This document shows positions 23,846-33,537 of a DNA stretch of 64,000 nt, piece by piece. The first letter of the stretch is position 1; each line of letters opens with the position of its first letter. Source of the DNA: Fusobacterium perfoetens (GTDB lineage: Bacteria; Fusobacteriota; Fusobacteriia; Fusobacteriales; Fusobacteriaceae); the NCBI RefSeq assembly GCF_021531595.1, contig NZ_JADYUD010000001.1, positions 186,001 through 250,000 on the forward strand, read 5' to 3'. Both the position numbers and the translations under genes were made by a program. The notes under the pieces were generated by a model. It worked only from the letters and a program-made list of their open reading frames with translations. It did no database searches and was not told the DNA's origin.

Positions 23846-23878
23846 AAAGAGAGGGTATTTTATCCTCTCTTTTTTTAT
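23846..23878 (+). terminator. Terminator after the SDR gene
   Basis: AAAGAGAGG and CCTCTCTTT arms with a 9-base loop, followed by a T run. Confidence 0.85.
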
Positions 23879-23920: not shown

Positions 23921-24015
23921 ATTTAATAATTTGAATATAATTTAGCTTAAATATATGTTAAAATAGACCTAAGATATAATGAAGAAGATAAGACTTATAT
24001 TTTTGGGGTGATTAT

Positions 24016-24057
24016 ATGGCTACAAACTTTGAATTTTAAAAAAAAGATTGGAGTATA
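24016..24057 (+). other. Original hsdR start region, interrupted by an ochre codon
   Basis: ATG 24016 follows the strong ribosome site GGGGTGAT (24005-24012) and encodes MATNFEF. Then comes TAA (24037-24039), and the same frame continues KKDWSI into the long hsdR frame without any shift. In this HsdR group a leucine normally occupies that place (NF-x-F-L-x-x-x-W), and TTA to TAA is a single base change. An A8 tract (24038-24045) overlaps the stop codon. Confidence 0.8.
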
Positions 24058-27000
24058 TTGGCTCAAATAGGAGAGATGGCAGAGTATACACTGCATAAAG
24101 ATCCAAATACTGCAATTATAAAAATAAGACAATTAGGGGAATATATAGCCAAGTTAATGATAAAGGTAGAAAGACTTCCTGAAGTTGAAAACCAGATAGA
24201 CAGAATTAGAGTTTTAAAAGACTATGATTTAATACCAGAAGATATAGATAAAATTTTTCATAAAATAAGAAAAGCTGGAAACATAGCTGTACATGATATG
24301 AAAGGTGAAATGGCAGAGGCAGAAGCTCTGCTTTCACTTGTTGTAAAACTTTGCGGCTGGTTTAATGAAGTTTATGGAAGTGACTGCACTTTTAATTCAG
24401 AAGATATAGAATATAAAACACCTGAATATATTGATTATAAAGAAAAATATGAGGCTCTTCTTTCTGAAGTTGAAATTAAGTCTAAAGAGTTTCAGGCTTT
24501 AAAATCTGAAGATATAACACATAAAACACCTGAAGAAAGAAAGAGAATAATAAGAAGTAAAAAGCCAATAGAACTTACAGAAGCAGAAACAAGAGTTCTT
24601 ATAGATGAGCAGTTAAGAGAAGCGGGTTGGGAAGTTGATACTAATTCTTTAAATTATAAATTAAATAAAACTCTTCCTGAAAAAGGAAAGGCAATGGCAA
24701 TAGCAGAGTGGCTGTGTATCAAAGAAGATGGAGAAAAAGGATATGTAGACTATGCTCTTTTTTATAAAAATACTCTATATGGTGTGATTGAAGCTAAAAG
24801 ATATGGTGTAGATATTACTTCTGCACTTAATAGAGATGCAAGAATGTATGCTAAAGGTATATTTATTCCTGAAGATATTAAACTTTGTGATGGAGCTCCA
24901 TACAGTAAATATAAAGTTCCTTTTATGTTTGCAAGCAATGGAAGAGAATATAATAAAGATTTAATTGAAAAATCAGGTATCTGGTTTTTAGATGGAAGAA
25001 AAGAAAATAATGTTTCAAAGCCTCTGAAAGGATTTTATTCTCCTGAAAACTTAGAGAAATTGATGGAAAAAGATGATGATTTAGCAAATAAAAGACTTGC
25101 TGAAAATTCAATAGAATATTTAAAGTCACCAGATGGATTAAATTTAAGATATTATCAGGCTGAGGCAATAGAAGCTGTAGAAAATGCTCTTATAAGTGGA
25201 AAACATAAAGTTCTTCTTACAATGGCAACAGGAACAGGTAAAACAAGAGTTGCCCTTGGAATAATATACAGACTGATAAAAAGCAAGAAATATAATAGAA
25301 TCTTATTTGTTGTTGACAGAGCAAGTCTTGGAGAACAGGCAAATGATACATTTAAAAACACAAAAATAGAAGACCAATATACACTGTCACAGCTTTACGA
25401 TATAAAAGATTTAGAGAGCAAGTTCCCTGAACATGATACAAAAGTACATATTGTAACAGTTCAAGGACTTATTAAAAGAGTTTTATTCCCAAATGATGAG
25501 AATTATCTTTCAGTAGGAGATTATGACTGTATTATCGTTGATGAAGCTCACAGAGGATATATTTTAGATAGAGTTCCAACAGAGGAAGAAGCTCTTATAA
25601 GAGATGAAAAAGAATATCAAAGTAAATATAGAAATGTTATAGAATATTTTGATGCAGATAAAATAGCTCTTACAGCAACACCTGCTCTTCATACTTATGA
25701 AATATTTGGAAACCCTGTTTATGAATATTCATACAGACAAGCTGTACTTGACGGTTACCTTGTAGATTTTGAGCCACCATATAAAATAGTTACAAAGCTT
25801 GGAAAAGATGGGATACATTATGAAAAAGGCAGTGAGATAAAGGTTTATGATACATCTACACAGGAAGTAAAGATAGTTGAAAACTTGGAGGATGAACTTG
25901 ATTTTGATATTACAAAATTCAATACTAAAGTTATAACAGAGGGATTTAACAGAGCTGTATGTCAGGCTCTTGTAAATGAAATAAGCCCAGAGGGAGAAGA
26001 AAAAACTCTTATCTTTGCAGCAAATGATGAGCATGCAGATATGGTTGTAAGAATTTTAAGAGAAGAGTTTGAAAATCTTGGAGCTTACCAGATGAATAAT
26101 GACATGATAACTAAGATAACAGGCTCTGTAAAAGATGTTGATAAACTTATAAGAAAGTTTAAAAATGATAATTACCCTACAATAGCTGTTACAGTTGACC
26201 TGCTTACAACAGGAATAGATGTTCCAAAAATTTGCAATCTTGTGTTTTTAAGAAAAGTAAAAAGCAGAATTTTATATGAACAGATGATAGGAAGAGCAAC
26301 TAGACTTTGTCCTTCAATAAATAAAGAATGCTTCAAAATATATGATGCAGTTGATATTTATAAGGATTTGGAAAAATACTCAGATATGAAACCTGTTGTT
26401 ACAAGTCCTAAAACTTCTATAGAAGATTTATTTAAAAATTTTGACGATATAAAAGAAGATGAGAAATCTGTATCATATTTTATGGAACAGATTGTTGCAA
26501 GACTTCAGAGAAAGAAAAATGTTATTAAAAAAGAAAATGAAAATCGTATCAAAGTTCTATCAAAAGAAATGAGAGGGGAAGAGATAACAGATATAGATAA
26601 ATATTTTTCTGATTTAAAAAATGCAGAGGATAGTAAAAAAATTGAAGTTTTAGAAAAAGAAAAAGAGTTTTTAATATATCTTGATAAAATTAGAATAGAA
26701 AATAATAATTATAAGGTTATATCACATGAAAGTGATGAAGTTCTTTCAATAGAGCAAGATTATGGAGAAAATAAGACTCCTGAAGATTATCTTGAAAGTT
26801 TTAAAAAATATGTAAAAGAGAATGAAGATAAAATTGAGGCTCTAAAAATACTTAAGACATCTCCAAAGGCTTTTACTAAGGAAGATTTAAAAGAGATAAA
26901 AAAATCTCTTGATGCCTATGGATATAGTGAAACAAACCTTAATACAGCTTATAAGACTGTAAAAAATGAAGATATTTTAATAGATATTATTTCTTTTGTT

Positions 27001-27288
27001 AAATATGCAATTACAGAAGATAAAAATGAGCTTATAAGCAAAGATGAAAAAATAAGAAAAGTTATGGAAAAAATAAGAAAACTTAATACTAAATGGAGCA
27101 AACCTCAAGAACAGCTTCTTAAAAGAATAGAAGCTATGTTAAGAGGCGATGAATATATTACAAAAGAAGATTTTAATGATGGACAATTTAAAAAAACTTA
27201 TGGAGGAGCTGAAAGAATAGATAAAATTTTACAAGGAAAACTTGATGAAATTATGGAAATAATATATGATGGCATTCTGCTAAATTAA
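24058..27288 (+). CDS. hsdR: Type I restriction enzyme subunit R (HsdR), N-terminus interrupted
   Basis: The motor and nuclease subunit of a type I restriction system. In order: a DUF4145-like helical domain (about residues 1-110), the HSDR_N nuclease region with D-x(n)-GVIEAK (about 225-247), and a DEAD-type translocase with Walker A MATGTGKT (about 388-395), DEAH (about 495) and the motif VI region YEQMIGRATRL. A long helical C-terminus (about 800-1076) follows. The first in-frame start after the upstream ochre codon is TTG 24058, four bases after GGAG, a weak reinitiation site. The rest is intact, so the protein may be made poorly or not at all. Confidence 0.85.
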   Translation: MAQIGEMAEYTLHKDPNTAIIKIRQLGEYIAKLMIKVERLPEVENQIDRIRVLKDYDLIPEDIDKIFHKIRKAGNIAVHDMKGEMAEAEALLSLVVKLCGWFNEVYGSDCTFNSEDIEYKTPEYIDYKEKYEALLSEVEIKSKEFQALKSEDITHKTPEERKRIIRSKKPIELTEAETRVLIDEQLREAGWEVDTNSLNYKLNKTLPEKGKAMAIAEWLCIKEDGEKGYVDYALFYKNTLYGVIEAKRYGVDITSALNRDARMYAKGIFIPEDIKLCDGAPYSKYKVPFMFASNGREYNKDLIEKSGIWFLDGRKENNVSKPLKGFYSPENLEKLMEKDDDLANKRLAENSIEYLKSPDGLNLRYYQAEAIEAVENALISGKHKVLLTMATGTGKTRVALGIIYRLIKSKKYNRILFVVDRASLGEQANDTFKNTKIEDQYTLSQLYDIKDLESKFPEHDTKVHIVTVQGLIKRVLFPNDENYLSVGDYDCIIVDEAHRGYILDRVPTEEEALIRDEKEYQSKYRNVIEYFDADKIALTATPALHTYEIFGNPVYEYSYRQAVLDGYLVDFEPPYKIVTKLGKDGIHYEKGSEIKVYDTSTQEVKIVENLEDELDFDITKFNTKVITEGFNRAVCQALVNEISPEGEEKTLIFAANDEHADMVVRILREEFENLGAYQMNNDMITKITGSVKDVDKLIRKFKNDNYPTIAVTVDLLTTGIDVPKICNLVFLRKVKSRILYEQMIGRATRLCPSINKECFKIYDAVDIYKDLEKYSDMKPVVTSPKTSIEDLFKNFDDIKEDEKSVSYFMEQIVARLQRKKNVIKKENENRIKVLSKEMRGEEITDIDKYFSDLKNAEDSKKIEVLEKEKEFLIYLDKIRIENNNYKVISHESDEVLSIEQDYGENKTPEDYLESFKKYVKENEDKIEALKILKTSPKAFTKEDLKEIKKSLDAYGYSETNLNTAYKTVKNEDILIDIISFVKYAITEDKNELISKDEKIRKVMEKIRKLNTKWSKPQEQLLKRIEAMLRGDEYITKEDFNDGQFKKTYGGAERIDKILQGKLDEIMEIIYDGILLN

Positions 27289-27308
27289 TAAATTGAGAGG
27301 ATAAGAAA

Positions 27309-28742
27309 ATGACTAATAACGAAATTGTACAAAAATTATGGAATTTATGTAATGTTTTAAGAGATGACGGGATAACTTACCATGAATATGTAACTGAGCT
27401 TACATATATTTTATTTTTAAGAATAGCAAATGAGCTTGGAACAGAAGATAAAATAGGAATCCCTGAAGAATATAGATGGGAAGAACTTGCAAAACTTGAT
27501 GGGACAGACCTTAGAAATAAATATCAAGAAGCTCTTTTAAGACTTGGTAAAAATTCATCAACACTTGGAACTATATACAGAAATGCTCAGACAAGAATTG
27601 CAGAGCCAGCAAACCTAAAGAAAATATTTACTGAAATCAATAAAATAGAATGGTATTCAGAAGATAAAGAAAATCTTGGAGATTTATATGAGGGACTTTT
27701 AGAAAAAAATGCCTCTGAAAAAAAATCAGGAGCAGGGCAATATTTCACACCAAGAGTTTTAATTGATTCAATGGTAAGAGTTATAAAACCTGAATTAGGA
27801 GAAAGAATATGTGATCCTGCAGGAGGAACTTTTGGATTTATAATAGCAGCTGACAAATATTTAAAAGAAAAATATGATGATTATTTTGGAACTGATGAAA
27901 GACCTATTACAGATGAAGAAAGAGAATATCAAGAAACAAAAGCTTTTTCAGCTTGTGAGTTAGTACCTGATACACATAGATTAGGGCTTATGAATGCTAT
28001 TCTTCATGAAATTGGAGGAAATTTCATTCAGGGGGATACATTATCAGAGTTTGGAAAACAGCTTAACGGTTTTGATATAGTCCTATCAAATCCACCATTT
28101 GGAACTAAAAAAGGAGGAGAAAGAGCAACAAGAGATGACCTTATTTATGATACATCAAACAAACAGCTTAACTTCTTACAAGTGATATATAATTCTTTAA
28201 GAACTTCTGGAAAAGCTAGAGCAGCAATAGTTCTTCCTGATAATGTTTTATTTGAAGGTGGAGTTGGAAAAGATATTCGTATAGATTTAATGAATAAATG
28301 TAATCTTCATACAATACTAAGACTTCCAACAGGAATATTCTATGCTCAGGGAGTAAAAACAAATGTATTATTTTTCACAAGAGGAAAATCAAATGAAAAT
28401 AATACAAAAGAGATTTGGTACTATGATTTAAGAAGCAATATGCCAAACTTTGGAAAGACAAATCCATTAACAAAAGAACATTTTGAAGAATTTGAAAGAA
28501 CTTTTGACAATGCTGAAGAAAAAGAAAAACTTGAAAGATGGACAAAAGTAACTCTTGAAGAAATTGAAAAGAAAGATTACTCACTTGATATGGGACTTTT
28601 AAAAGTGGAAGATAATGCAGAAGAACTTCAAAATCCTATTGAAAACGGTGAAGAATGTATAGAAAAATTAGAAGAAGCTCTTGATTTATTAAAAGGAATC
28701 TTAAAAGAGCTAGATCTTTGCGGGGTGAAAAAAGATGCTTAA
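27309..28742 (+). CDS. hsdM: Type I restriction-modification system methyltransferase subunit (HsdM)
   Basis: Adenine-N6 methyltransferase that works with HsdS. It has an N-terminal helical HsdM_N domain (residues 1-130), the SAM motif ICDPAGGTFGFI (about 170-181) and the catalytic NPPFG (about 261-265). At 477 residues it is normal length and intact. GAGAGGAT is a fair ribosome site. The stop overlaps the start of hsdS by 8 bases, as expected for a complex made in fixed ratio. Confidence 0.95.
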   Translation: MTNNEIVQKLWNLCNVLRDDGITYHEYVTELTYILFLRIANELGTEDKIGIPEEYRWEELAKLDGTDLRNKYQEALLRLGKNSSTLGTIYRNAQTRIAEPANLKKIFTEINKIEWYSEDKENLGDLYEGLLEKNASEKKSGAGQYFTPRVLIDSMVRVIKPELGERICDPAGGTFGFIIAADKYLKEKYDDYFGTDERPITDEEREYQETKAFSACELVPDTHRLGLMNAILHEIGGNFIQGDTLSEFGKQLNGFDIVLSNPPFGTKKGGERATRDDLIYDTSNKQLNFLQVIYNSLRTSGKARAAIVLPDNVLFEGGVGKDIRIDLMNKCNLHTILRLPTGIFYAQGVKTNVLFFTRGKSNENNTKEIWYYDLRSNMPNFGKTNPLTKEHFEEFERTFDNAEEKEKLERWTKVTLEEIEKKDYSLDMGLLKVEDNAEELQNPIENGEECIEKLEEALDLLKGILKELDLCGVKKDA

Positions 28743-30219
28743 GAAAAAAGATAATCTTTTACCAGAAGAAAGATTAATAAAAGCAGTAATTCCCAAAGAA
28801 GAAGAGCCTTATAAAGTTCCAGATAATTGGGTATGGACAAGATTAGGAAATATTTTAGAGTTAAAAAATGGAGTTGCCGTAAATAGTAATGAATATGGAA
28901 CGGGAAATACTCCATTAATTAGGATTTCAAATATTCAAAATAACAGAGTAGATTTAACAGAAGCAGCAAGAATAAAGTTACAAGAGAAATATAAAAAATA
29001 TTTATTAGAAAAAAATGATTTGCTTTTGGCCATGTCTGGTGCAACAACTGGAAAAATAGGAATTTTTAATGAAGATATAATTTGTGTTCAGAATCAACGT
29101 GTAGGAAATTTAAAAATAAAATATGGCATGACTCATGGTTATAGAAATTACTATTTTCAAAAAATGCAAGAAGAATTATTAAGACTAGCCTATGGAGGAG
29201 CACAGCCTAATATAAGTGGGAATATTATAGAAAATTTATTACTTCCATTATCGCCACTTGAGGAACAAAAAAGAATAGTTGAAAAGTTAGATTCTTTGTT
29301 TGAAAAAATAGGAAAGATAAAAGAAATTATTGAAGAGATAAAAGAAAAAACATCTTTAAGGAGAGAAGCTGTTCTTTCAAAAGCATTTACAGGAGAATTG
29401 ACAGAAAAATGGAGAGCAGAAAATAAAACTGAAAATGCAAAAGAACTTCTTTTAAAAATCAATGAAGAAAAATTAAAAAACAATCTTAAGGCAAAAATAA
29501 AAGATGTTTCTGAAATGCTTGTTAATGAAGATGAAGTTCCTTATAAAGTTCCTGAAAATTGGGTATGGACAAGATTAGGAGATATAACAGAGATTAATCC
29601 TAAAAAGAAAGTTCTTGACTTTAACGAAGATGAAGAAGTGTCATTTGTTCCTATGAAATCTGTTTCAGAAGAAACAGGAAGAATTGAAAAAATAGAATAT
29701 GAAAAATATTCTAAATTAAAAAAAGGTTACACACAATTTATTGAAGAAGATGTACTTTTTGCCAAAATAACTCCTTGTATGGAAAATGGAAAATGTGCTA
29801 TAGCAGAAAATTTAAAAAATAATATTGGATACGGTACAACTGAATTTCATGTTTTGAGATGTTATCAAGGAGTAATTAATAGTTTATTACACAAATTTTT
29901 AAGACAGGAAAATTTTAGAAAAGAAGCAGAATATAATATGACAGGAAGTGTTGGTTTTAGAAGAGTACCTGTTGATTTCTTAAAAAGTACATTATTCCCT
30001 TTACCTCCACTTGATGAGCAAAAAGAAATAGTAAGAATTTTAGATAAAGTTTTTGAGGAGGAAAATAAAATTTCTGAACTTATCTCACTGGAAGAAAAGG
30101 TAGAAATTTTAGAAAAAACTATTCTTGATAAAGCATTCCGTGGAGAGCTTGGAACAGGAAATTCTGACGATGAACCTGCAATAGAATTATTAAAAAGAGC
30201 ACTAGAAAAGAATAAATAA
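28735..30219 (+). CDS. hsdS: Type I restriction-modification specificity subunit (HsdS)
   Basis: Recognises the two halves of the target sequence. Two target-recognition domains (about residues 18-185 and 262-430) are separated by long helical spacers (about 186-240 and 440-490). Both domains begin with the same segment, NWVWTRLG, encoded by a 42-bp direct repeat. Both end with a PL-x(2)-L-x-EQK motif. At 494 residues it is complete. The ribosome site GGGGTG lies inside hsdM. The target sequence cannot be predicted. Confidence 0.95.
   Translation: MLKKKDNLLPEERLIKAVIPKEEEPYKVPDNWVWTRLGNILELKNGVAVNSNEYGTGNTPLIRISNIQNNRVDLTEAARIKLQEKYKKYLLEKNDLLLAMSGATTGKIGIFNEDIICVQNQRVGNLKIKYGMTHGYRNYYFQKMQEELLRLAYGGAQPNISGNIIENLLLPLSPLEEQKRIVEKLDSLFEKIGKIKEIIEEIKEKTSLRREAVLSKAFTGELTEKWRAENKTENAKELLLKINEEKLKNNLKAKIKDVSEMLVNEDEVPYKVPENWVWTRLGDITEINPKKKVLDFNEDEEVSFVPMKSVSEETGRIEKIEYEKYSKLKKGYTQFIEEDVLFAKITPCMENGKCAIAENLKNNIGYGTTEFHVLRCYQGVINSLLHKFLRQENFRKEAEYNMTGSVGFRRVPVDFLKSTLFPLPPLDEQKEIVRILDKVFEEENKISELISLEEKVEILEKTILDKAFRGELGTGNSDDEPAIELLKRALEKNK
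28807..28848 (+). repeat. Direct repeat copy 1 in hsdS
   Basis: A 42-bp segment at the start of the first recognition domain, matching 29539-29580 at 40 of 42 positions by my count, offset 732 bp (in frame). Encodes PYKVP-x-NWVWTRLG. Confidence 0.85.
29539..29580 (+). repeat. Direct repeat copy 2 in hsdS
   Basis: Second copy of the 42-bp repeat, at the start of the second recognition domain. Repeats of this kind allow in-frame recombination between specificity domains. Confidence 0.85.
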
Positions 30220-30349: not shown

Positions 30350-32512
30350 ATGGAAATAAAAATATGTCTTGATTGGATAGACTTTTATATGGAATTAGCA
30401 GATAAACTTCTACCATATAAAAATGATAGGAAAACATTAATAGAAAAAATAAAAAATATTTATTTCAATATTAATATGCGTTTGCCAAAATTAGAAAAAG
30501 ATAATAATCTTGTTGATATTGATCCATTTACAATTTTTGGACTTTTTAATAAAGGAATTACAAAAACAAACAGAATATCTATTTTACAAGGTTTTGCTCA
30601 AGAATTTTCTATAAAAGCACCTGTTCCTAATTTTTTTGATGGGATACCTGTTTTAAATAATATGGCAGCTACTTTTTATTATTTTATTGGAGATCGTCAA
30701 GAAAATGATATTGAAAACTTATGGAAAATATTTGCATTAGCTCTAGAATATGCAGATACTAATTCAGATAACAATAAAAAAGAATTTATAACAATTTATG
30801 ATACTGTGTCTCAGCAAAAAGGAATTAGATGGAATTTAACAATGGCTCTTTATTGGATTCGTCCATATAAATATATCAATTTAGATTCTCGTAATCGTTG
30901 GTATATTTCTAATCCTGAAAATATGCCAGCTGACTATATTAAAAGCATTGGATCTTTTGAAACTGTTCCTACTGGTGAAGAGTATCTTAGTATCATTGAT
31001 AAAAGTTCTTCTGCTCTTGAAAAAGGTAATTATCATTATAAAAATTTTCCTGAACTATCTTGTTATGCATGGGTTATTTCAGAAAAAGTAAATCAGGAAA
31101 TTCGTGCAGCAGAAGTTGAAAAATCAAGAACAAACATAGGAGAAGCTATTGGAGATAAAGATATTCAGACAGTACATTATTGGATTTATTCTCCAGGAAA
31201 TAATGCATATATGTGGGATGATTTTTATGATGATGGTATTATGGCTATTGGTTGGGGAGAAATTGGTAATCTGACTAATTTCACTACTAAAGATGCAATG
31301 AAACAAAAAATGAAAGAGTGTTTTGATCCTACTCTTTCCTATAAAAATGCTGCTCATGCTACATGGCAATTTGTTAATGAAATGAAGCCTGGAGATATTG
31401 TTTTTGTAAAAAAAGGAATGCATCGTATTATTGGAAAAGGTGTAGTTACTTCTGACTATATATTTGATTCTTCTCGTAAAGATGATTATAAAAATATTCG
31501 TCAGATTAACTGGACTCACAAAGGTGATTGGGAACATCCTGGACAAGCAGTTTTGAAAGCATTAACAGATATTACTCCTTACACTGATTATGTTGAACAA
31601 TTAAATGCAATATTTGAAGATGAAGTGATTGAAGAAACAGAAGAAACAGAAATTCAATTCCCTATTTATACCAAAGATGATTTTTTAAATGAAGTATATA
31701 TGAGTGAAGCAAACTATTGTCTTCTAGTTAATTTACTCAGAAATAAAAAAAATATTATTATGCAGGGAGCACCAGGTGTGGGAAAAACATTTGCTGCTAA
31801 AAGATTAGCATATTCTATGATGAAAGTTAAAGATCCTAGTAGAGTAATGATGATACAATTTCATCAAAGTTACAGCTATGAAGATTTTATTATGGGATTT
31901 AGACCTGCAGCAACTGGTTTTGAATTAAAAAAAGGACCATTTTATAATTTTTGTAAAAAAGCAGAACTTGATCTTGAAAATGACTATTACTTTATCATTG
32001 ATGAAATTAATCGTGGTAATTTAAGTAAAATTTTTGGTGAGCTTTTTATGCTTATTGAAAGTGATAAGCGTGGTGTAGCTTTACAACTACTTTACTCAGA
32101 TGAAAAGTTTTCTGTGCCTGAAAATGTTTATATTATTGGTATGATGAATACTGCAGATCGTAGCCTTGCAATGTTAGACTATGCTCTTAGACGCCGTTTT
32201 GCATTTTTTGAATTTTCTCCAGCATTTGAAACAGTTGGTTTTCATCAGTATCGTCAAGAAAAAAATAATAAAAAATTTGATAATCTTATTGTAGTTATTG
32301 AAAAATTAAATATAGCTATTGAAAATGATGAATCTCTTGGCAGAGGTTTCCGTATAGGACATAGCTATTTCTGTACAGATAAAGATATTAATGATATGTG
32401 GTTAAATGCTGTAATTACATATGAAATTATTCCTCTTCTAAATGAATATTGGTTTGATGAACCAAGTAAAGTTCAAGAATGGAAATTTATACTATATGAG
32501 GCAATTAGATGA
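30350..32512 (+). CDS. mcrB: McrB-type AAA+ GTPase of a modification-dependent restriction system, with PUA/EVE-like reader
   Basis: McrB forms a GTP-driven ring that recruits the McrC nuclease to modified DNA. In this 720-residue protein, residues 1-265 are a domain I do not recognise. About 272-400 look like a PUA-superfamily (EVE-like) base reader (HYWIYSPGNNAYMWDDFYDD, then MAIGWGEIG, then KPGDIVFVKKG). The AAA+ domain starts near 465 with Walker A GAPGVGKTF, then IDEINRGNLSKIFGE (about 565) and the McrB signature MNTADRS (about 599). E. coli McrB is about 460 residues. Arginine is mostly CGN here, unlike hsdRMS. Overlaps mcrC by 4 bases. Confidence 0.9.
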   Translation: MEIKICLDWIDFYMELADKLLPYKNDRKTLIEKIKNIYFNINMRLPKLEKDNNLVDIDPFTIFGLFNKGITKTNRISILQGFAQEFSIKAPVPNFFDGIPVLNNMAATFYYFIGDRQENDIENLWKIFALALEYADTNSDNNKKEFITIYDTVSQQKGIRWNLTMALYWIRPYKYINLDSRNRWYISNPENMPADYIKSIGSFETVPTGEEYLSIIDKSSSALEKGNYHYKNFPELSCYAWVISEKVNQEIRAAEVEKSRTNIGEAIGDKDIQTVHYWIYSPGNNAYMWDDFYDDGIMAIGWGEIGNLTNFTTKDAMKQKMKECFDPTLSYKNAAHATWQFVNEMKPGDIVFVKKGMHRIIGKGVVTSDYIFDSSRKDDYKNIRQINWTHKGDWEHPGQAVLKALTDITPYTDYVEQLNAIFEDEVIEETEETEIQFPIYTKDDFLNEVYMSEANYCLLVNLLRNKKNIIMQGAPGVGKTFAAKRLAYSMMKVKDPSRVMMIQFHQSYSYEDFIMGFRPAATGFELKKGPFYNFCKKAELDLENDYYFIIDEINRGNLSKIFGELFMLIESDKRGVALQLLYSDEKFSVPENVYIIGMMNTADRSLAMLDYALRRRFAFFEFSPAFETVGFHQYRQEKNNKKFDNLIVVIEKLNIAIENDESLGRGFRIGHSYFCTDKDINDMWLNAVITYEIIPLLNEYWFDEPSKVQEWKFILYEAIR

Positions 32513-33537
32513 TAAAAATTCAAAATATTTACTATATGCTTACATATGCTTTTCAAGTTCTAAAAGAACAAGGGTATGCAAGTTGTGCTATAGAAGAATT
32601 TGAAAATACTGCAGATTTATTATCTGCTATCCTTGTAAAAGGAGTAACAGTACAAATAAAACGAGGTCTCAATCGTGCATATACTGAAAAAACTGAATCG
32701 TTAAGCTGTCTACGAGGTAAGATTAATGTTACAGAATCTATTAGGCAACAAACTATCATTAAACAGCAATTAGTTTGTATTTATGATGAATTTTCAGCTA
32801 ATTCTTATATGAATCATATTTTAAAAACTACAATGGAATTACTTTTAAGGTATGATATTCCAAAGGTAAGAAAAAAAGAATTAAAAAAGTTACTTCCTTA
32901 TTTTAAGGATATAGAAACAATAGATATTTACAATATAAATTGGAAATTTAGATTTCATCGTAACAATCAAAGCTATCAAATGTTGATGTCTGTTTGCTAT
33001 CTTATTATTAAAGGATTATTACAGACAACTGCTGATGGTTCTGTTAAGTTAATGCAATTTTTAGACGAACAAAGAATGTGTCGGTTATATGAAAAATTTA
33101 TTCTTGAATATTATAGAAAAGAACACCCTGAAATTAAAGCAAGTGCTTCTCAAATTTCTTGGCAATTAGATGATGAATTTAGTTTCATGTTGCCTATTAT
33201 GCAGACAGATATTATGTTATCTAAAGGAAATACTATTTTAATTATTGATGCAAAATATTATACTCACACTACACAAAAACAATATAGCAGTAATACTCTT
33301 CATTCTAGTAATTTATATCAAATATTTACATATGTAAAAAATAAAGATGCTGAATATGGAGAAGTTCCACACATTGTATCTGGAATGTTGTTGTATGCTC
33401 AAACTGATGAAACCATTCAACCAAATCAAACTTATCATATGAGTGGTAATAAAATTAGTGTTCGTACTCTTAATTTAAATTGCTCATTTGAAGAAATTGC
33501 AAATCAATTAGATGATATAGTAAAAGAACATTTTTAA
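32509..33537 (+). CDS. mcrC: McrC-type nuclease subunit
   Basis: Endonuclease partner of McrB. The N-terminal region (IQNIYYMLTYAFQVLKEQG) and the C-terminal PD-(D/E)xK core (about residues 210-250, with MQTDIMLSKG and ILIIDAKYY) are typical; 342 residues matches the usual length. The start overlaps the mcrB stop (ATGA). It uses CGN arginine codons in about half its positions, like mcrB. It appears intact, so modification-dependent restriction could still work even if hsdR does not. Confidence 0.9.
   Translation: MIKIQNIYYMLTYAFQVLKEQGYASCAIEEFENTADLLSAILVKGVTVQIKRGLNRAYTEKTESLSCLRGKINVTESIRQQTIIKQQLVCIYDEFSANSYMNHILKTTMELLLRYDIPKVRKKELKKLLPYFKDIETIDIYNINWKFRFHRNNQSYQMLMSVCYLIIKGLLQTTADGSVKLMQFLDEQRMCRLYEKFILEYYRKEHPEIKASASQISWQLDDEFSFMLPIMQTDIMLSKGNTILIIDAKYYTHTTQKQYSSNTLHSSNLYQIFTYVKNKDAEYGEVPHIVSGMLLYAQTDETIQPNQTYHMSGNKISVRTLNLNCSFEEIANQLDDIVKEHF

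Follow-up and report, generated by a model that had tools for sequence, protein, structure and literature searches.

The HsdR subunit of the type I restriction system EcoKI carries an N-terminal extension that has been termed "required" in a review (PMC12707154), and earlier work has described DUF4145 as a family of HEPN domains found in fusion with restriction helicases (PMC3710099). Disruptions of hsd genes are common according to a general remark in the literature (PMC3874165); in Mycoplasma agalactiae hsdR is truncated and type I methylation persists (PMC9465063), and spontaneous hsd mutations occur in transformed group A Streptococcus (PMC8084154). Recent hsdR loss of the kind described below is ordinary. 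The window analyzed here, a 64,000-nucleotide stretch of Fusobacterium perfoetens DNA (positions 186001 to 250000 of contig 1, from a genome of 2.06 Mb in 36 contigs), holds an EcoKI-like type I operon in which codon 8 of hsdR is TAA. We interpret this, with a probability of about 0.72, as a recent, sporadic loss-of-function allele of hsdR beside intact hsdM and hsdS genes and not as a dedicated switch.

The hsdR frame, as read from ATG 24016, runs through MATNFEF, the TAA codon (24037 to 24039) and KKDWSILAQIGEMAEYTL to the next stop at 27286 to 27288, so that 1,082 codons are open past the TAA and the rest of an EcoKI-type HsdR is otherwise complete. The original prediction of a strong ribosome site at this ATG, followed by a heptapeptide, an ochre codon and, in the same frame, more than 1,000 residues of HsdR was correct to the base. 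Pfam profiles identify a DUF4145-like N-terminal domain, an HSDR_N nuclease, an SF2 helicase and an EcoEI_R_C domain, and the protein scores 1269.8 bits against NCBIfam PRK11448/NF008521 (cut-off, 729). It is adjoined by hsdM and a two-domain hsdS in the order hsdR-hsdM-hsdS. These two genes are intact as had been proposed, judging from N6_Mtase and HsdM_N matches, the PADLOC model MTase_I and two stretches of Methylase_S, and no other complete pair of type I modification genes turned up in the genome. No second copy of this hsdR is present in the genome. The terminator-like hairpin upstream of hsdR was observed once, against 0.1 expected from shuffles, and local RNA structure near the hsdR start is ordinary (z of -1.1).

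Table 1. Features of the hsdR-hsdM-hsdS region, numbered from the first letter of the window.
Feature	Position	Strand	Evidence
Terminator-like hairpin separating hsdR from the SDR gene ahead of it	23846..23872	+	12-pair stem, then T run
Ribosome-binding site (GGGGTGAT) for the original start codon of hsdR	24006..24013	+	16S-tail pairing -9.0 kcal/mol; leader matches that of L003
Residual 7-codon frame MATNFEF-TAA, at the family's normal hsdR N terminus	24016..24039	+	Sequence; NF-x-F/Y-L motif in relatives
In-frame ochre codon, codon 8	24037..24039	+	Sequence; Leu in relatives
TTG, codon 15, candidate weak restart; start reported by mechanical ORF callers	24058..24060	+	GGAG 4 nt upstream
ATG, codon 21, second candidate restart	24076..24078	+	Pairing -3.3 kcal/mol
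Rest of hsdR, 1,076 codons	24058..27288	+	Pfam; NCBIfam PRK11448; conserved sites kept
hsdM, intact	27309..28742	+	N6_Mtase (3.8e-72), HsdM_N; PADLOC MTase_I
hsdS, intact, two target recognition domains	28735..30219	+	Methylase_S in two stretches

Directly downstream of the operon lies an McrBC pair (30350 to 33537), with a McrB-like AAA ATPase of 720 amino acids followed by McrC. Region 278 to 392 of the ATPase matches a PADLOC candidate-defence model. Together with the type I operon, this pair forms a small defence island, and the type IV system is possibly intact.

The position of the stop was compared with about 75 related hsdR genes (identity of about 40 to 77%). All of them are open at the position of codon 8, nearly all carry NF-x-F/Y-L, and no TAA occurs at this codon in any of these homologues. 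The same holds across many phyla, since all 66 named homologues whose N terminus was checked are open there, nearly all with NF-x-[F/Y/H]-[L/F/I]. An uninterrupted N-terminal extension starting with NF-x-F/Y-L is thus intact in the approximately 75 homologues and absent in the window hsdR. The nearest homologue, L003, encodes a protein that is 77% identical, has the matching leader ttttggggtgatt-ATG-GC and begins ATG GCA ACT AAT TTT TAT TTT CTA AAA AAA GAT TGG AGT. Codon 8 is CTA in L003, L007 and L011, TTA in L004, L005 and L009, and TTG in L006, L008, L010 and L145. The TAA therefore sits, as suggested, at the leucine codon of the family, one substitution away from a codon for this residue. 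Of the longer motif first put forward for the family, NF-x-F-L-x-x-x-W, the part NF-x-[F/Y/H]-L holds, whereas the tryptophan that follows is common only among near relatives.

The body of HsdR bears no sign of decay. None of 155 alignment sites that are invariant across 13 other homologues is changed, and relative-rate tests with five outgroups found 49 to 61 unique changes in the window protein against 65 to 82 in L003, fewer every time. A long-dead pseudogene is ruled out by the invariant sites, which are all kept, and by a rate that is not raised. The stop is therefore either a very recent change or an error in the sequence, unless HsdR is still being produced. The lack of decay is as expected in this last case, and it counts against the loss-of-function reading.

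An error of sequencing or assembly, with a sense leucine codon as the true sequence and normal HsdR, would account for the undecayed body, and the change falls at the junction of a T run and an A run (TTTTAAAAAAAA) in a single draft genome, which is split into 36 contigs. Neither another strain nor another record of the species turned up in a single-protein scan of genome contigs, a search for the DNA pattern in viral contigs or a near-identity search of plasmids. The tract, however, is 12 bases long, the same as in L004 and L005, which points to a substitution and not to the usual homopolymer indel, and the completeness and contamination of the assembly are put at 99.94% and 0.04%. We therefore regard an error as distinctly unlikely.

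Several routes around the stop were considered. No ochre suppressor tRNA was found, as none of the 48 readable tRNA matches has an anticodon for TAA (a 49th runs off the end of a contig), and a variant genetic code is ruled out because TAA ends 10 of 13 sampled genes. An alternative in-frame start further upstream is impossible, given that the stop lies downstream in the same frame. Starts in another frame at GTG 24008 or TTG 24029, combined with slippage, would be without a ribosome site. Recoding could in principle take the form of a frameshift at UUU-UAA with a return at A-AAA-AAG, or of a start at GTG 24008 followed by -1 slippage; A-AAA-AAG lies within an A8G tract, and the +1 frame from GTG 24008 is open across the TAA. 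The A tract, however, consists of plain Lys-Lys codons that are also present in relatives without the stop, and runs of at least eight A or T are common, with 19 in the window. In addition, the pairing at GTG 24008 is only -0.4 kcal/mol, with no ribosome site, and translation from ATG 24016 would require a double shift. Recoding is hence extremely improbable.

Restart downstream of the stop deserves closer attention. Pairing with the 16S tail amounts to -9.0 kcal/mol at ATG 24016, -5.9 at TTG 24058 and -3.3 at ATG 24076, compared with a median of -7.3 for 31 ATG starts in the window. TTG 24058, which comes 18 nt past the TAA, has a GGAG at 24050 to 24053 and pairs more strongly than 27 of the 28 internal TTGs in the sample, and TTG is rare as a leucine codon (5%). 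The proposal that this TTG might act as a weak restart behind GGAG thus gains support from its pairing, albeit at a short spacing. The pairing at ATG 24076, a candidate absent from the original prediction, is ordinary, as 22% of internal ATG codons are equal or better. Mechanical gene callers begin at TTG 24058 and return an apparently intact protein of 1,076 residues; annotation from this downstream codon hides a damaged restriction gene, and the restriction phenotype predicted from it would be wrong.

Such a restart could make the gene a reduced-restriction allele kept by selection, with functional HsdR produced at a low level from TTG 24058 or ATG 24076. The strong start of the leader peptide, a TAA merely 18 nt ahead of the TTG, a GGAG better placed than at all but one of the 28 internal TTG codons, the rarity of TTG and the purifying selection on the body would all fit. 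In Escherichia coli lacI, translation restarts after early nonsense codons, which provides a precedent. The position of the stop is also suggestive: 467 hsdR codons are one step from a stop and just 5 of them precede TTG 24058, so that a stop upstream of a usable restart tips the balance slightly toward an allele with lowered expression and away from a random null. Against this, the stop-free genes L006 and L145 have TTG at the same position, so the codon is not a compensatory change; the GGAG-TTG spacing is short; and a restart would drop the family-wide NF-x-F/Y-L motif, which lies in a domain termed required in EcoKI (PMC12707154). We consider a functional allele maintained in this way unlikely. 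A stop kept as a translational attenuator, in which a strong seven-codon leader and a weak TTG restart would hold HsdR deliberately low and restriction weak, appears very unlikely.

What a restart would remove was judged by modeling the first 220 residues with AlphaFold2, with the TAA read as leucine for the fold only. The model has a mean pLDDT of 90, with residues 1 to 30 at 92 to 95, and places the motif at residues 4 to 8 and helix 1 at residues 13 to 25. A start at the TTG corresponds to residue 15, inside helix 1, and is therefore predicted to remove the motif and cut the helix. HsdR started at the TTG would be damaged, since the missing residues are part of an N-terminal domain that the whole family conserves. 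This domain presumably corresponds to the EcoKI extension, given the shared profile family and its placement ahead of the nuclease domain.

A sequence search retrieved no solved structure for the family of the N-terminal domain. The EcoKI-type HsdR extension (24016 to 24400, alignment A2) models as a putative HEPN-like helical domain, and its best PDB matches are HEPN proteins, with probabilities of 0.92 to 0.98 but E-values of about 0.6. The RNxxxH pattern of HEPN RNases occurs in 12 of 27 aligned homologues, and the window protein and its near relatives have GNxxxH.

For the favored sporadic loss of hsdR, events may have run as follows. A recent point mutation would have turned leucine codon 8 into TAA in an operon of the EcoKI type. 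Under the standard code, ribosomes starting at ATG 24016 would make the heptapeptide and terminate. Some reinitiation at TTG 24058 or ATG 24076 might yield a little HsdR minus its first 14 to 20 residues. The N-terminal domain would thereby lose a cap that is conserved and well ordered, so restriction should be strongly reduced or absent. Methylation by M2S should continue, provided that the stop exerts only mild polarity on hsdMS. The 20-nt gap between hsdR and hsdM (27289 to 27308) holds no promoter match above chance and rho is present in the genome, so the early stop could be polar on hsdMS, and the modification-positive state is itself to be read as conditional. From the sequence, the allele is probably hypomorphic or null, and the cell modification-positive and restriction-weak or restriction-negative. 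If the stop is real and the allele null, the strain should prove more transformable than expected from its type I locus. If instead the TTG restart works, the locus would be a simple natural case of weakened restriction with normal modification.

It had also been proposed that restriction is held in reserve, in an off state that can be reversed and is kept because a single base change undoes it. The TAA is indeed one substitution from a leucine codon, but single-base reversion is true of every point mutation, and no homologue has the same state. Phase-variable loci have a repeat tract or recombination that toggles the frame; no such switch, by repeat or by inversion, sits at this stop, and a change in length of the A8 tract would leave the TAA, which lies upstream of it. 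The proposal finds no support in these data, and we judge it hardly credible.

The background rate of hsdR disruption was estimated from 67 named homologues in species-representative genomes. In-frame stops or frameshifts were found in 4 of them at scattered places: L084 has a stop at match residue 368 and L127 a TAA at match residue 15, and the frame is shifted in L095 and L112. A broken hsdR also occurs in G058, a genome of the window's own taxonomic family. Against this background of scattered stops and frameshifts, the stop in the window looks like an ordinary sporadic loss.

Three of the related loci have features of their own. In L127 (5001 to 5120), from an Oscillospiraceae MAG, the lone early TAA replaces an otherwise invariant glutamate in helix 1, and the remaining gene is open. 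The hsdR of G058 (L009; G058:C1:2370947-2374184) lies in three frames with an internal TAG, a case of independent decay. A related type I operon on a Haliovirga abyssi plasmid (L052:10650-11717) has an extra gene for a PDDEXK nuclease between hsdM and hsdS.

The locus is like those of EcoKI-type (type IA) HsdR proteins both in the parts of its HsdR (the N-terminal extension, the nuclease, the helicase and the C-terminal part) and in the gene order hsdR-hsdM-hsdS, but unlike these the window gene has a stop at codon 8. A short leader that ends at a stop, with start codons behind it in the same frame, resembles the lacI restarts, although the candidate restart codon here is a TTG with short spacing. 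As in M. agalactiae PG2 and others (PMC9465063), hsdR is broken and the modification genes are retained; the lesion of M. agalactiae, however, is a 2-nt insertion in a mid-gene poly(A) tract seen in five strains, whereas that of the window is a base substitution that alters codon 8 in a single genome. The scatter of independent loss mutations across hsd genes is shared with group A Streptococcus (PMC8084154), in which the mutations arose under laboratory transformation.
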